Shown: positions 38,772 through 45,117 of the stretch, piece after piece | How the letters are laid out: each line of letters starts with the position of its first letter | Numbering within the stretch: the stretch's first letter is position 1 | NCBI GenBank assembly: GCA_947627315.1 | Contig: CANQVN010000003.1 | Span: forward strand, 1-45,117 | Reading direction: 5' to 3' | From: an uncultured Clostridia bacterium | Lineage (GTDB): Bacteria > Bacillota > Clostridia > Oscillospirales > QAKW01 | DNA length: 45,117 nucleotides | Position numbers and translations under genes: made by a program | Notes under the pieces: model-generated | Told to the model about the DNA's origin: nothing | What the model saw: only the letters and a program-made list of their open reading frames with translations | Database searches by the model: none

Positions 38772-39125
38772 TTACTTCATTTTTGGATTTGAAATAAGCG
38801 AGAATATATATCCGAAAAAAACAGCCGCGGCAACTCCGCCCGCCGTGGCGCGAAGCCCGCCTGTGAAAATGCCAATCCAGCCGTATTCGTTTATCGCCTG
38901 CTCAACGCCCTTTGCAAGCGAATAACCAAACCCGGTTATCGGCACGGTAGCTCCCGCCTCGGCAAATTTAACAAGCGGCTCGTACACTCCGACCGCTGTC
39001 AGCACGACGCCCATTGTCACAAACAAAACGACAATTTTGGCGGGCGTCAGCTTTGTTTTGTCAATCAGTATCTGTGCTATAACGCAAATGGCGCCGCCTA
39101 TAAGAAAAGCATAAATATATTCCAT
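38772..39125 (-). CDS. spoVAE: Stage V sporulation protein AE (SpoVAE/SpoVAEB)
   Basis: MEYIYAFLIGGAICVIAQILIDKTKLTPAKIVVLFVTMGVVLTAVGVYEPLVKFAEAGATVPITGFGYSLAKG. Confidence 0.95.
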   Translation of the reverse strand: MEYIYAFLIGGAICVIAQILIDKTKLTPAKIVVLFVTMGVVLTAVGVYEPLVKFAEAGATVPITGFGYSLAKGVEQAINEYGWIGIFTGGLRATAGGVAAAVFFGYIFSLISNPKMK

Positions 39126-39127
39126 TG

Positions 39128-40138
39128 TTATTCCCCCGTGAAGTTAATCAAATGTGCTATTGAAGGTATGCTCTCACCCTGAAACGATGCCGTCGGACTC
39201 ATCAGCGCGCCCGTTGCCATAAAGAGAACGTTTTTAAGCTCACCTGACACTATTTTCGGAAGGATATGCCCTGTCAGCACCGCTCCGCCGCAGCCGCAGC
39301 CGGAGCCGCCCGCGTGAACGTCCTGCTTTTCAATATCAAATAACATAAGCCCGCAGTCGTTATAGTTATTACCGAGGACTACTCCCCTCTCCGCCGCCAT
39401 ATCTACAAGTATCGACGAGCCGACAGAGCCGAGATCCCCTGATAAAATCAGGTCAAAATCGTTCGGGCTGCTGCCCGTATCCTCAAAGAAACGACAAAGT
39501 GTGTCGGCGGCGGCAGGAGCCATTGCCGCGCCCATATTGTTCGGGTCATAAACCTGATAGTCGATAACGCTTCCGAGCGTAAATCTGTTCAGTCGAACGC
39601 CGCTGCCGCCAAGTCTGTATACGATTGCCGCCCCTGCGGTCGCCGTGCGCTGCGCGCCGGGAGTGCGCTGACCACCGTATTCAAGCGGCTGGCGAAACTG
39701 ACGCTCCGCCGTGCAAAAATGAGACGAAGTAACGCCTGCGGCGTAATTTGCAAATCCGCACTCAATCGCCATACCTGAGATTATTGACGACAGCGCCATT
39801 GTCGAACACGCACCGAAAAGTCCGATATAAGGCACGCCGCTGTCTCTGACGCTGTAGCTTGAGCTGAGGCACTGGTTCAAAAGGTCGCCCGACGATATAA
39901 CGTCAAGCGCCGACATCTCAAGTCCGCCTTTGTCAAGCGCACTCTTAAGAGCTGTTTTCTGGAGCTTAACCTCGGCTTTTTCATACGTTTTTTCGCCGAA
40001 ATACTCGTCGTTTACCACCATATCAAAGCAGTCGCCGAGCGGTCCTTCGCCCTCAAATTTCCCCACGATATTGCCAAAGCTCGCAACACGGATGTCCTTT
40101 TCAAAGGTCAATGTCTGTTTTGCCTTTTTTTCTGCCAT
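39128..40138 (-). CDS. spoVAD: Stage V sporulation protein AD (thiolase-fold)
   Basis: DKGGLEMSALDVISSGDLLNQCLSSSYSVRDSGVPYIGLFGACSTMALS; 336 aa, apparently intact. Confidence 0.96.
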   Translation of the reverse strand: MAEKKAKQTLTFEKDIRVASFGNIVGKFEGEGPLGDCFDMVVNDEYFGEKTYEKAEVKLQKTALKSALDKGGLEMSALDVISSGDLLNQCLSSSYSVRDSGVPYIGLFGACSTMALSSIISGMAIECGFANYAAGVTSSHFCTAERQFRQPLEYGGQRTPGAQRTATAGAAIVYRLGGSGVRLNRFTLGSVIDYQVYDPNNMGAAMAPAAADTLCRFFEDTGSSPNDFDLILSGDLGSVGSSILVDMAAERGVVLGNNYNDCGLMLFDIEKQDVHAGGSGCGCGGAVLTGHILPKIVSGELKNVLFMATGALMSPTASFQGESIPSIAHLINFTGE

Positions 40139-40147
40139 ATTTTCACC

Positions 40148-40270
40148 TCAAAATACCATATTGCAAACCCAGTAAATCAAGCCGTAAATCATCGAGGCGA
40201 CAACGCCGTAAACGATAACAGGTCCCGCCACCGTAAACATTTTTGCGCCGACGCCCATGACATAGCCTTC
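40148..40270 (-). pseudogene. spoVAC: 3' fragment of spoVAC (C-terminal ~40 codons), interrupted by a serine-recombinase element
   Basis: Minus-strand translation EGYVMGVGAKMFTVAGPVIVYGVVASMIYGLIYWVCNMVF-stop ends 10 nt before the spoVAD ATG; matches the SpoVAC C-terminal pattern (EGxVLGVxxxMFxxAGxVIVFGVVxxxxxGxI). Frame runs into a stop at 40334-40336 with no SpoVAC N-terminus. Confidence 0.85.
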
Positions 40271-40389
40271 TGCTTGTGTCAAGTAGTGACCAATAAAAAT
40301 TTTTTCTTTATTTTCTGCGGAGTCGCAAATCGTCTATTGGTCTTTCCAAAACACACGCACAATATACCCGTGTGATATAATAAAACCAA

Positions 40390-42006
40390 CTATGATACGT
40401 TCGATGTCGGTTGTGCCGGAATGGTAACTTCGGAGAGTACATCTTTGCACTTCCATTCAATCTCTATTCGGTCACCCGGATATACGCGAATGCTTTCTAC
40501 CAGTTTTCCGATGACGGCCGGATCATAGCTTGTCAGCTGCTCTATTTGGGAGTGACTTTCCTGAATCGGATGCAGCTGATTTTTTTGTGTCTGAAGTTGC
40601 GTTAGAGCATCCTCACACTGAAGCAGCTGATCGGAAAGAAGGTTGACCTTAGCCTCGTTATCCTTCTGCGCCTTGAGAAACTGCTCCTTTGTGAGCTTCT
40701 CTGTGCGATACTCCTCGTACAGTTCATATTTACGGTTTTTCAACTGTGCGATTTGGCTGCGCAATTTTTTTATTTGTCGTTCGGTGGCCGGAGCTTCTTC
40801 CTGCCGCTTTGCAAGCGCAACCGTTTGCCGCTCCAAAAGCAGCGCCGAATAGTGCTGCACCGCACACAGAACATTTTCTTTCAACTTCTCCATATCTTCG
40901 TGAATGCCGGCACAATCGGAATGTGGGTCGCTGCGTGCTTTCATGCAAAACAAATGCGTAATATTGCCCTGTGACTTTTGCAGCTTCCGACCGCAAAATC
41001 CGCAGATAAACAGATTGTTTTTCCGGTCTCCCGATGTGTTTTTGTTGATTGTCTTGATGCGGCTTTGCATGGAGAGGTGCGCCGCCTCGAATGTTTCATC
41101 CGAGACGATTGCCTCGTGCGTCCCCGGAACGACAATCCATTCTTCTTTGGGGATCGGCTTCATTTTATTTGTACGAATTCCGGCAGACTCGACTTTACCG
41201 GATATCATTTTCCCCGTATACCGTTCGTCATTGAGGATTCTTCTAACGGTTGCCGGGATCCAAAGAGGTTCGTCGTTCATTCGCCGTCCGTTATATGTGT
41301 TGCCCAGTTGCTTCTTTCTTACGACCGGCGGAGGGATTCTTTCTTCATTTAGTCGCACTGCGATTTGTGCCGTTGTCAATCCGTTAATACACAGGGCGAA
41401 GATCTCCTCAACGACCGGACGTACTTCTTCATCAACAATCAAATGCCGTTTGTTTTCGGGATCGACCAGATATCCGTAAAACCCGCCGGAGCCACAGTAA
41501 TCGCCACGTCGATTTCTTGTTTTGATTGCGCTTCGCACCTTAATCGACAGGTCTTTGCTGTATAAGCCGTTGATTAGATTTCGGAGAGCAAGTTCCAGTC
41601 CTCCGGTCGTACCGATATAATTGCTGCTGTCGAAGCCCTCGTTGACGGATATGAACCTTGTGCCGAACAACGGCAATATCAGCTCCAGGTAAGCGCCTAC
41701 TTCCAAGTATTCGCGCCCGAATCGGGAAAGATCCTTGACCATAATGCAGTCGATTTGTCTTTCCTTCACCAGGACCATCATGTCTTGAAAACGCGGCCGA
41801 TTGAAATTGGTTCCGCTGTATCCGTCATCGCAGAATTCAACGGTATCATACGCTTTCAAAAGATCCTCGTGAGACTGATAATAATCTATAAGAAGCTTCC
41901 GTTGATTGCCGACGCTGTTGCTTTCCGTTTTTGAATCCGAGGTCTTTAGGTCTCCATCCTCCACGGAGAGTCGAATATAGAAAGCGAGTCTTTTCTTAGA
42001 CGGCAT
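40390..42006 (-). CDS. Large serine recombinase 1 (element-end proximal)
   Basis: Resolvase domain FYIRLSVEDGD...VKDLSRFGREYLEVG; recombinase domain; zinc ribbon CGFCGRKL; coiled coil. Confidence 0.95.
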   Translation of the reverse strand: MPSKKRLAFYIRLSVEDGDLKTSDSKTESNSVGNQRKLLIDYYQSHEDLLKAYDTVEFCDDGYSGTNFNRPRFQDMMVLVKERQIDCIMVKDLSRFGREYLEVGAYLELILPLFGTRFISVNEGFDSSNYIGTTGGLELALRNLINGLYSKDLSIKVRSAIKTRNRRGDYCGSGGFYGYLVDPENKRHLIVDEEVRPVVEEIFALCINGLTTAQIAVRLNEERIPPPVVRKKQLGNTYNGRRMNDEPLWIPATVRRILNDERYTGKMISGKVESAGIRTNKMKPIPKEEWIVVPGTHEAIVSDETFEAAHLSMQSRIKTINKNTSGDRKNNLFICGFCGRKLQKSQGNITHLFCMKARSDPHSDCAGIHEDMEKLKENVLCAVQHYSALLLERQTVALAKRQEEAPATERQIKKLRSQIAQLKNRKYELYEEYRTEKLTKEQFLKAQKDNEAKVNLLSDQLLQCEDALTQLQTQKNQLHPIQESHSQIEQLTSYDPAVIGKLVESIRVYPGDRIEIEWKCKDVLSEVTIPAQPTSNVS

Positions 42007-43699
42007 ATTTCTGTACCTCCTTTTGGCGGAGGGCTGCCAAATGGATCACCTCATCAATTTCATCTTTGAAGTTGAAATCCACTTCCACATGACCGTCATT
42101 GTAAAGTGTCAGCTTGTCAATGAAGGCTGCGACCATCTCTTCATCGAGCATTTCCGCATCCTTGTACCGCTCAATCAAGGATGCCCAGTGACTTTTTTTA
42201 GCGTATTCGGGACTATACTGCTCGGCCTTGTCTTCAAGCTCTTTCAAAAAGATTTTCAGCTCGTCCGCCTTGCTTGCCTGCACCTGACTCATCTCAAAAT
42301 AATCCGTTCGACTGATTACTCCGTTTGTCATGTCTTCGTACAGGTTGGATTTACGCTCCACACAATACGCAATGTCACGCTTCACAGAGCGAATCTGATC
42401 GCAGAGAATCCGATACTTGGTTTTGCTGGATTCTCTTTTATTCAGCTCTGTAATCACAGCTTGAGAATCGGCAAACAATTTCATCTGTGTTTTTATCAAC
42501 CGCAATGCAACGCTTTCTACATCCGCCTGTTTCACAGCTTTTTTGGAGCAGTAAGAGGAATTATAATTTTCGTGCAAAGCGCAGTAGTACCACCAGTTTT
42601 TCTCTCCATGATGACCGTTTTTATGGCGGAGAAACATTGCCTGTCCGCATTCGCCGCAGCGCAAATGGCCTTTGAATATACTTGCCTTTTTGCTTTTGCA
42701 ATTCGGCTTAGAAACCATGCCGTGTTCCTGCTTCGTCTGTTCAAAATAGGCCTGCGCTTTTTCAAATAGATCTTCCGTCACAATCGGTTCATGCGTCCCC
42801 TTTGTAACCGTCCATTCTTCTTTCGGTAGAGGAGAACATCCTTTTTTACCGGTTGCAAAGTAATCGGAACGGAATTTTCCGCTCACCATCCATCCGAGAT
42901 AGATCTGATTATCCAAAATCCGGCGAACGGTTTGCATATACCATTTGGAATTCTTAAAATGGTCGGTAGTCGCCACGCCTCGGTCATATAGGATTCGCCC
43001 GGGAGATGGCACGCCCCTCGCATTCAGCGTTGTTGCGATGGAATGCAATGTGCAGCCATCGGCCAGCATTTCAAACATTTCTTTTACGATTGGCGCCGTC
43101 TCTTCATCAACAATGAGATGGTGTTTGTCAAGAGGGTCCAGAAGGTATCCGTAAGGTGCGCGGCTTCCGGAAAATTTACCCTGCTGCTGGATAGAACGCA
43201 TCGTAGAGCATATTTTTCGGGAAATATCCTTGGCATACATCTCGTTCGCCATATTTTGAAGCTGAACTGCGATATCCGCCTGCTGATATTTAGAATCAAA
43301 CTGATTTGTAACAGCAATAAAGCGCACACCGAAGAATGGGAACACCATCTCGATGTATTCGCCCGATTCAATGAAGTTTCGCCCCAATCTTGAGAGGTCT
43401 TTTACGATTACGCAGTTGACCTTTTTATCCCGTATATCATTCATCATCCGGGCAAAATCCGGGCGATCAAAATCAGTTCCGGTCATATCGTCATCGCAAT
43501 AGATATCGAATACTTCCATATCTGCTTGTTCCGAAGCAAAATCTTTCAAGAGCTGTATCTGCGTTCCAATAGAATCGGATGCGATCTTCTGTTCGTTTTC
43601 AACAGAGAGTCTGGCATACAAGGCGGCTGAATAAACGATTTGCTTCTCGGTGGAGGCAGAGTTCGCTATTGCGCCATTTTTTCGGCTCTTTCGGGCCAT
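41996..43699 (-). CDS. Large serine recombinase 2
   Basis: YARLSVENEQ...VKDLSRLGRNFIESGEYIEMVFPFFGVRFIAV; zinc ribbon CGECGQAMF; 11-bp overlap with recombinase 1. Confidence 0.95.
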   Translation of the reverse strand: MARKSRKNGAIANSASTEKQIVYSAALYARLSVENEQKIASDSIGTQIQLLKDFASEQADMEVFDIYCDDDMTGTDFDRPDFARMMNDIRDKKVNCVIVKDLSRLGRNFIESGEYIEMVFPFFGVRFIAVTNQFDSKYQQADIAVQLQNMANEMYAKDISRKICSTMRSIQQQGKFSGSRAPYGYLLDPLDKHHLIVDEETAPIVKEMFEMLADGCTLHSIATTLNARGVPSPGRILYDRGVATTDHFKNSKWYMQTVRRILDNQIYLGWMVSGKFRSDYFATGKKGCSPLPKEEWTVTKGTHEPIVTEDLFEKAQAYFEQTKQEHGMVSKPNCKSKKASIFKGHLRCGECGQAMFLRHKNGHHGEKNWWYYCALHENYNSSYCSKKAVKQADVESVALRLIKTQMKLFADSQAVITELNKRESSKTKYRILCDQIRSVKRDIAYCVERKSNLYEDMTNGVISRTDYFEMSQVQASKADELKIFLKELEDKAEQYSPEYAKKSHWASLIERYKDAEMLDEEMVAAFIDKLTLYNDGHVEVDFNFKDEIDEVIHLAALRQKEVQKYAV

Positions 43700-45117
43700 G
43701 ATGCCACCTCCTCTGTCTGCATATAATATTCCTTTACCACATCAACCAACCGTTTATAATCCTGTTCGTTAGAGAAGTCAACGCTGATCCGTTTTCCCTC
43801 ATATACGGAGATTTTGTCAATCAGTCGGACTGCGGCTACTCGTTCAAGACTTTGCAAATTTCGATATTCCATATAGGCACGGATCCATTCCTTTTCCTCG
43901 CTGTCTCCGCTCAGAAACATGGATAGCTCTTTTTGGAGCTGCTCTTTGGAGATTAGAGCTTGTTTTATTTTGGAATCATACCTTCCGGTAATATCGAGAT
44001 AATCGTCCTTGCTTAGGACACCTTCCTTCATATCTTCATAGGCAGATACCTTCAACCTACGGTATCGTTCTGTTTCAGCATCGACCGCAACGAGACGATC
44101 TCTAATTTTTGCGCTGTTCATTTTTAAGGTCGGCCTGTCTTTAATCGCTTGCAGACAATCGAGCAATTCGGTAATCATACGGATATGCTCCTGCATAACT
44201 GCTAAAACATCCGCTTCCAGTATCTTTTCGGATATCTGATGGTTACTGCATGCGCCCGTCTTTTTGTGATTACCGCATACATAATAGGCAAACTTTTTCC
44301 CGCCGGATGTTGTGGTCTTTCGCACCATAGCCCCATGACAGTCGCCACATTCCAAAAGCCCGGATAATGGCAGAACCTTGTCAAGCTTCTGGGATGTTCT
44401 TGTATCCAGTTCGAGCAAACGCTGCACAACTGCAAATTGACTCGGTGCGATAATCGGCTCGTGTGCATTCTCAACCACCGCCCACTTATCACGGTCGTTA
44501 ACGACTACGGTTTTGATTTTGTAATTTGGCCGTGTACGCACGCCCTGCACCAATGTTCCGGTATATACGGGGTTTGTGAGGATGCGCCGAACGGCTACCG
44601 GCGTCCATTGTGCCTGTTCGCTTGTCTTAAAGGCGGTTTTGAACGGTTGTCCCGTGCTCCGCTTGTACTCCATAGGCGACAGAACACCTTGTTCAATCAG
44701 TTTTTTACAGATAGCATCAGGATTATAACCTTCCAACTTCCATGCAAAAATATCTCTTACGACCTCTGCAGCATACGGGTCAATCACCAATTGATTTTTG
44801 TTCTCCTCGGATTTAACATATCCATAAGGAGCAAAAGCGCCGATAAATTCGCCGTTTTTTCGCTTGACCTGAAGCTGACTGCGTATCTTGATGGAAATAT
44901 CTCTGCAATAGTTGTCATTCATCAGGTTCTTGAGCGTAATATTGAAATCGGAATCTCCTGTGCCTGTAACGGTATCGATATTATCATTGATAGCGATCAA
45001 ACGCACTCCATAATACGGAAAAAGACGACCGATATACTTTCCGGCATTGATGTACTCTCTGCCGAAACGGGACAGATCTTTTACAATGACACAGTTCACC
45101 GCTCCGGCACGGATGTC
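43666..45117 (-). CDS. Large serine recombinase 3 (5' end off window)
   Basis: DIRAGAVNCVIVKDLSRFGREYINAGKYIGRLFPYYGVRLIAINDN; zinc ribbon CGDCHGAMV; frame open to 45117; catalytic-serine region not visible; 34-bp overlap with recombinase 2. Confidence 0.93.
   Translation of the reverse strand, partial: DIRAGAVNCVIVKDLSRFGREYINAGKYIGRLFPYYGVRLIAINDNIDTVTGTGDSDFNITLKNLMNDNYCRDISIKIRSQLQVKRKNGEFIGAFAPYGYVKSEENKNQLVIDPYAAEVVRDIFAWKLEGYNPDAICKKLIEQGVLSPMEYKRSTGQPFKTAFKTSEQAQWTPVAVRRILTNPVYTGTLVQGVRTRPNYKIKTVVVNDRDKWAVVENAHEPIIAPSQFAVVQRLLELDTRTSQKLDKVLPLSGLLECGDCHGAMVRKTTTSGGKKFAYYVCGNHKKTGACSNHQISEKILEADVLAVMQEHIRMITELLDCLQAIKDRPTLKMNSAKIRDRLVAVDAETERYRRLKVSAYEDMKEGVLSKDDYLDITGRYDSKIKQALISKEQLQKELSMFLSGDSEEKEWIRAYMEYRNLQSLERVAAVRLIDKISVYEGKRISVDFSNEQDYKRLVDVVKEYYMQTEEVASWPERAEKMAQ

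Follow-up and report, generated by a model that had tools for sequence, protein, structure and literature searches.

Tn4451 and Tn4453, which are among the described elements closest to the locus analysed here, have a GA core. In these elements (recombinase TnpX) a promoter arises where the ends are joined in the circular form (Lyras and Rood 2000, cited in PMC13023037). In streptococci, integrative and conjugative elements (ICEs) with triplets of adjacent serine integrases have been described, and these integrases cluster by external, middle or internal position (Ambroset 2016, PMC4701971). Rearrangements of sporulation genes form a third point of reference: sigK is rebuilt in a programmed way in C. 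difficile (PMC5025042), and gin of B. cereus has three serine recombinases, yet GirC with the directionality factor GirX is enough for the gerE rearrangement (PMC5595907).

The window, that is, the whole stretch of DNA analysed, is the complete contig C3 (CANQVN010000003.1, 45117 bp) of genome G000, from an uncultured Clostridia bacterium. We consider it likely that an integrative and probably conjugative element, which splits the sporulation gene spoVAC, has its right end in the window, and that a promoter, as predicted below, is divided by its attachment site.

The recombinase trio and its positional clades

Three paralogous large serine recombinase genes lie on the minus strand at the end of the window: R3, in internal (I) position, at 43666..45117 (483 aa, 5' open at the contig end); R2, in middle (M) position, at 41996..43699 (567 aa, complete); and R1, in external (E) position, at 40390..42006 (538 aa, complete), which adjoins the junction. 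The overlaps of 11 bp and 34 bp given in the initial annotation were reproduced, and its proposal of a same-strand recombinase operon at an element end agrees with the position of the junction, 120 bp past the stop of R1, the last gene. Resolvase (PF00239) and Recombinase (PF07508) domains were found with Pfam in all three proteins, which account for all PF00239 matches in the 86.5%-complete genome G000. The motifs YIRLS and KDLSRFGR are present in R1, and YARLS and KDLSRLGR in R2. The zinc ribbon that had been ascribed to all three gives a Pfam match in R2 and R3; R1 has no such match, but its four zinc-ribbon cysteines (C335, C338, C354 and C365) are invariant across seven orthologues. The third ORF does run off the window, as had been noted, and it is cut by the end of contig C3 itself, so by the assembly. 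Its catalytic serine, which the annotation had proposed to check, was assessed through the orthologues at loci L012 and L013 (with an R2 identity of 80% and 68%, respectively); these are complete, with YVRLS and KDLSRFGR, so that an intact catalytic serine is expected in R3. Near the opposite contig end, at 481-1551, an ORF resembles an IS30-family transposase by eye.

The earlier statement that one integrase normally suffices overlooks the serine-integrase triplets, which are an established module (PMC4701971), and the recombinase trio as such is already known. The search for the same trio in other genomes, also suggested in the initial annotation, gave nine loci including that of the window (one of the nine incomplete) from genome, plasmid and phage records, all with the gene order I-M-E; this recurrence in other records indicates that the arrangement is not due to chance. 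A maximum-likelihood tree separates the trio members by position (support 100/99 for I and 98/95 for E, but only 78/79 for M), in groups that span Clostridia and one Streptococcus record, and seven single recombinases (TndX and related types) fall outside the trio clades (100/98). The trios share a common ancestry, and the separate positional groups identify the trio as an old, co-inherited unit and not as a local duplication. Catalytic motifs are kept in nearly all complete trio copies; since, in addition, the three clades stand apart from the single recombinases, the members of the trio seem to be maintained together and active. A functional trio is supported but unproven by these sequence comparisons, and all three recombinases are probably active; they may recombine as heteromers or divide integration and excision among them, as the initial annotation suggested. 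Adjacent same-strand genes, the expected domains, positional clustering and a short repeat with target disruption, which together mark the triplet module, are all found here, the N-terminus of R3 being read through its orthologues. The ccr genes of SCCmec were considered as kin and set aside, having a different target and a different gene set.

Insertion in spoVAC and targets of related elements

Comparison of the window with contig C102 of the same genome and with two congeners (G002 and G003) places the GA crossover core of the right junction (attR) at 40269..40270 on the minus strand. This junction reads TTGACACAAGCA-GA-AGGCTATG, and the left junction, on C102, reads GAGTTTAAAAAA-GA-TGAGAGTGATATAAT. 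On the host side of the core the window contains, all on the minus strand, the 3' fragment of spoVAC (40148..40270; the last 40 codons and the stop, PF03862 positions 83-117), spoVAD (39128..40138; an ORF identified by eye from its sequence and the gene order) downstream of the split gene, and spoVAE, or spoVAEB (38772..39125; PF03862 match at 38793-39122). The 5' part of spoVAC (PF03862 positions 1-87) is on C102, with attL at about 722-744. The insertion point is a 2-bp GA core within a conserved part of spoVAC (codons EFKK|EG), and at the same place spoVAC is uninterrupted in both congeners, which thus carry the empty site. Rejoined, the spoVAC frame is intact and encodes a 148-aa SpoVAC; the two halves are open and in frame, with a dN/dS of about 0.07-0.08 against the congeners. 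No second spoVAC was found in G000 in the PF03862 search, the other match being spoVAEB only.

Insertions at the same codon of spoVAC are present in genomes G004 (L012) and G005 (L013), and in the latter both junctions are on one contig, 80.9 kb apart. In G165 the same junction pair was found in spoVAC, on a contig that ends before any recombinase. That the contig breaks near the junctions might reflect a mixture of excised and integrated populations was considered and rejected, since the breaks lie within the element, away from the fork.

Other observations concern spoVAC in further genomes. G001, of the same genus and 99% complete, gave zero PF03862 matches and seems to be without spoVAC and spoVAEB. 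In G180 (C2:15772-24359, L146) and G196 (C59:4609-6322, L147) spoVAC is intact, and behind it the 3' end of the gene is repeated one to three times, with TTGACA, 6 bp and GA in front of every repeat. The cargo between the repeats (in G196, a NERD-like protein) includes no recombinase, and the whole resembles an array of SCC-type cassettes by which the target gene is restored.

With a profile of the E protein, strong matches were obtained in 56 of 384 genomes of the order. Besides the window, 29 loci were examined, and at the 27 with a readable junction the targets are tyrosine recombinases (12), other serine recombinases (8), spoVT (5), spoIVA (1) and spoIVB (1), counts that are not independent, because there are near copies among the loci, and that rest for the most part on target names assigned by eye from translated fragments. 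The targets are recurrent: all 12 elements in tyrosine recombinase genes are inserted exactly in the HxxR active-site codons, on the reverse strand (L295, L297-L303, L305-L308). Through the insertions in tyrosine and serine recombinase genes, integrases of other elements are disabled. The spoIVB insertion adjoins the SGSP motif, with both halves confirmed at the same profile position on two contigs, and the spoIVA insertion adjoins the Walker A motif, the part found being that downstream of the cut. On the E tree the target labels change five times, which is the minimum for six labels; this suggests that the outer recombinase (E) probably carries, or at least tracks, target specificity.

The left ends of the elements in G372 and G040 were looked for and not found, and the trio on S. 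agalactiae plasmid CP138365, in an SNF2-type gene whose 5' half is missing, gave no left end. Trios are also carried by several short human-faecal records named "Bacteriophage sp." (MT83xxxx), which are probably pieces of ICEs, not phages; the contig L154 (MT836038.1, 5700-5860), submitted as a phage, is a trio element in spoIVB. A search of viral contigs with R2, attP and leader patterns gave nothing relevant.

A predicted promoter divided by the attachment site

Inside the right end of the window element, at 40277..40282 on the minus strand, the hexamer TTGACA is the predicted -35 box of a circularisation promoter. The same hexamer, 6-7 bp from the core, is present at 24 of the 27 readable junctions of the relatives. 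For nine elements, eight of them distinct, both ends are known, on one contig or record in G005, G344 and Vescimonas and paired by the target-gene halves in the other six, and these ends were rejoined across the core. An exact TTGACA-17/18-TATAAT was obtained in six of them, with a 17-bp spacer in the window element, G004, G165, G081 and G301 and an 18-bp spacer in G275; with a 17-bp spacer, 11 of 12 consensus bases are matched in Vescimonas and its near copy G344, and 10 of 12 in G005. In all nine, the crossover falls inside the spacer of the predicted sigma-A-type promoter. A perfect promoter score was obtained at most once in 20000 shuffles, and in five elements 0-2 of the 6 bases agree with the -35 box at the integrated left junction. 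Since the left ends of G081, G301 and G275 were located by the target gene alone, these three were not selected by their promoter.

In G005, G081, G275, Vescimonas and G344, the genes for conjugation begin at the left junction and are directed inward. Inward from the junction, G005 has DUF5348, orf96, orf95, a small membrane protein, a VirB6-like protein, an NlpC/P60 protein, a VirB4-like ATPase and a coupling protein, the last three being found between its two junctions; nearly the same series is present in G081, and most of it in G275. An unrelated conjugation operon (DUF6050, KilAC, DUF6017, PcfB, VirD4, Maff2, VirB6, VirB4) starts at the left junction in Vescimonas and G344, in the same direction as in G005. 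Wherever it can be read, the predicted promoter faces the conjugation operon, and the attachment module seems to supply the promoter irrespective of which conjugation operon it is joined to. The left part of the window element itself consists of about 730 bp of C102 with only the start of an orf96 homologue; since this part is so short, the conjugative nature of the element is borrowed from its relatives.

The explanation that we favour, and which the sequences make likely, is that an I-M-E triplet element was inserted at the GA core of spoVAC and that its circle-junction promoter acts as a switch. The trio would insert the element at a conserved coding motif, and integration would part the -35 from the -10 box, leaving the transfer genes without the rejoined-site promoter. 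In the excised circle, TTGACA from the recombinase end and TATAAT from the other end would be brought together by a crossover in the 17-bp spacer, and the predicted promoter would read into the conjugation operon that begins at the left end; the same excision would rebuild the host spore gene. Promoter activity, excision and the roles of the I, M and E proteins are what we infer here. If true, one crossover couples release of the element, powering of the transfer genes and restoration of the host gene, and there is a simple explanation of how such elements keep their transfer genes quiet while integrated.

The two hexamers could also have been kept only as recombinase-bound half-sites of an ordinary triplet-integrase ICE, with no promoter function. 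Both are within an attachment site of roughly 50 bp, attP has a partial dyad symmetry (TTGGTC/GACCAA in G005), and, the elements being related, the likeness of the hexamers may be inherited; however, unlike the outer arms, the hexamers do not mirror each other at an equal spacing from the core, and they stay constant, together with the 17-bp spacing, while the spacer letters vary among elements. Moreover, they correspond letter by letter to the sigma-A consensus and are directed towards the transfer operon in two conjugation modules that are unrelated to each other, and we consider this reading unlikely. It is doubtful, too, that a single recombinase works and the other two are passengers. This is the case suggested by gin, where girAB were unexpressed under the conditions tested and dispensable, and GirC with GirX sufficed (PMC5595907); gin, however, appears to be a composite element, with its third gene at a distance, whereas here the three genes overlap, and the trio keeps its order, distinct clades and catalytic motifs across large distances.

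As in skin-like elements, a sporulation gene is split here and its halves rejoin in frame, and the trio might excise the element during sporulation in a developmentally programmed way to rebuild spoVAC. The low dN/dS of the in-frame halves, the single spoVAC in the PF03862 search and the relatives in the order that strike spoVT, spoIVA and spoIVB are in line with such a role, but the intact halves are equally explained by a recent insertion, and 20 of the 27 junctions of the relatives are in recombinase genes without a sporulation role. Both spoVAC and spoVT act in the forespore. Excision in that compartment would be inherited as a loss, whereas skin is excised in the terminal mother cell (PMC5025042), and we regard a programmed excision as quite improbable. 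The reading of a triplet element with a circle-junction promoter as its switch has its own difficulties. Agreement with the consensus does not prove that a promoter exists, and an excised circle was not seen. In all eight distinct leaders, each folded singly, roughly the first 50 nt downstream of the -10 box form a hairpin (z-scores -1.6 to -6.6), and a hairpin just past the start site might halt transcription from the predicted promoter, which counts against this explanation.

The leader letters AAGTCAG...TGATTTAGTCC are kept in the spoVAC elements, and the hairpin leader of Vescimonas has a T-run. An Rfam search of the leaders returned no family matches, RNAalifold predicted no pairs on the leader alignment, and in 388 genomes of the order the leader pattern was found in the already known G000 and G165 only. 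A shared RNA structure is a lead and no more; the leader may act as an attenuator or block read-through. Separately, the leader was seen directly after the predicted start site at L006 (1-733), L034, L139, L162, L319, L320 and L323.

A wider proposal, which we put forward tentatively, is that a conjugative family widespread in Clostridia silences its transfer operon by splitting the promoter, with recombination as the on-switch and the hairpin leader as a second gate, and that the trio has been retargeted, by change of E, onto conserved motifs of spore genes and of the recombinases of rival elements. The favoured explanation, if right, also links conjugative elements with the loss and recovery of sporulation genes in Clostridia. 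Exact attachment sites are supplied for trio recombinases. The open-access literature searched contained neither the spoVAC, spoVT, spoIVA and spoIVB targets nor the split promoter; the spoVAC junction, the recurrent targets in these spore genes and in recombinase motifs, following the E phylogeny, and the split promoter are apparently new.

Comparison with described elements

With the streptococcal triplet ICEs (PMC4701971), the present elements have in common a same-orientation trio at one extremity, the E, M and I clades, short (2-8 bp) direct repeats, gene disruption and conjugation modules of several kinds. The targets differ, being mutT, traG and hsdM in the streptococcal elements and spoVAC, or, in the relatives, spoVT, spoIVA, spoIVB and recombinase genes, in those studied here; no split promoter is described in the passages of that paper considered.

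A rejoinable sporulation gene is also split by a large serine recombinase element in the case of skin in sigK, SP-beta in spsM and gin in gerE (PMC5025042, PMC4191935, PMC5595907). Like the window element, gin has three serine recombinases, but its genes are not in tandem (PMC5595907). These known spore-gene elements depend on one active recombinase together with a directionality factor, and their excision takes place in the mother cell (PMC5025042, PMC4191935, PMC5595907), whereas the window element has a tandem trio.

The likeness to Tn4451/Tn4453 consists of a large serine recombinase, a circle-junction promoter (predicted here) and a GA core. In Tn4451/Tn4453, however, there is one recombinase and the promoter serves tnpX (PMC13023037), while the promoter predicted here points away from the trio, reading into the left end and its conjugation operon and not into a recombinase gene. 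In ICEKp1 and ICEclc, as proposed here, a promoter reaches a new gene only after circularisation (PMC13023037). There, the promoter is at one end and drives the integrase gene (PMC13023037), whereas in the present elements the crossover would take place within the spacer of the predicted promoter itself.
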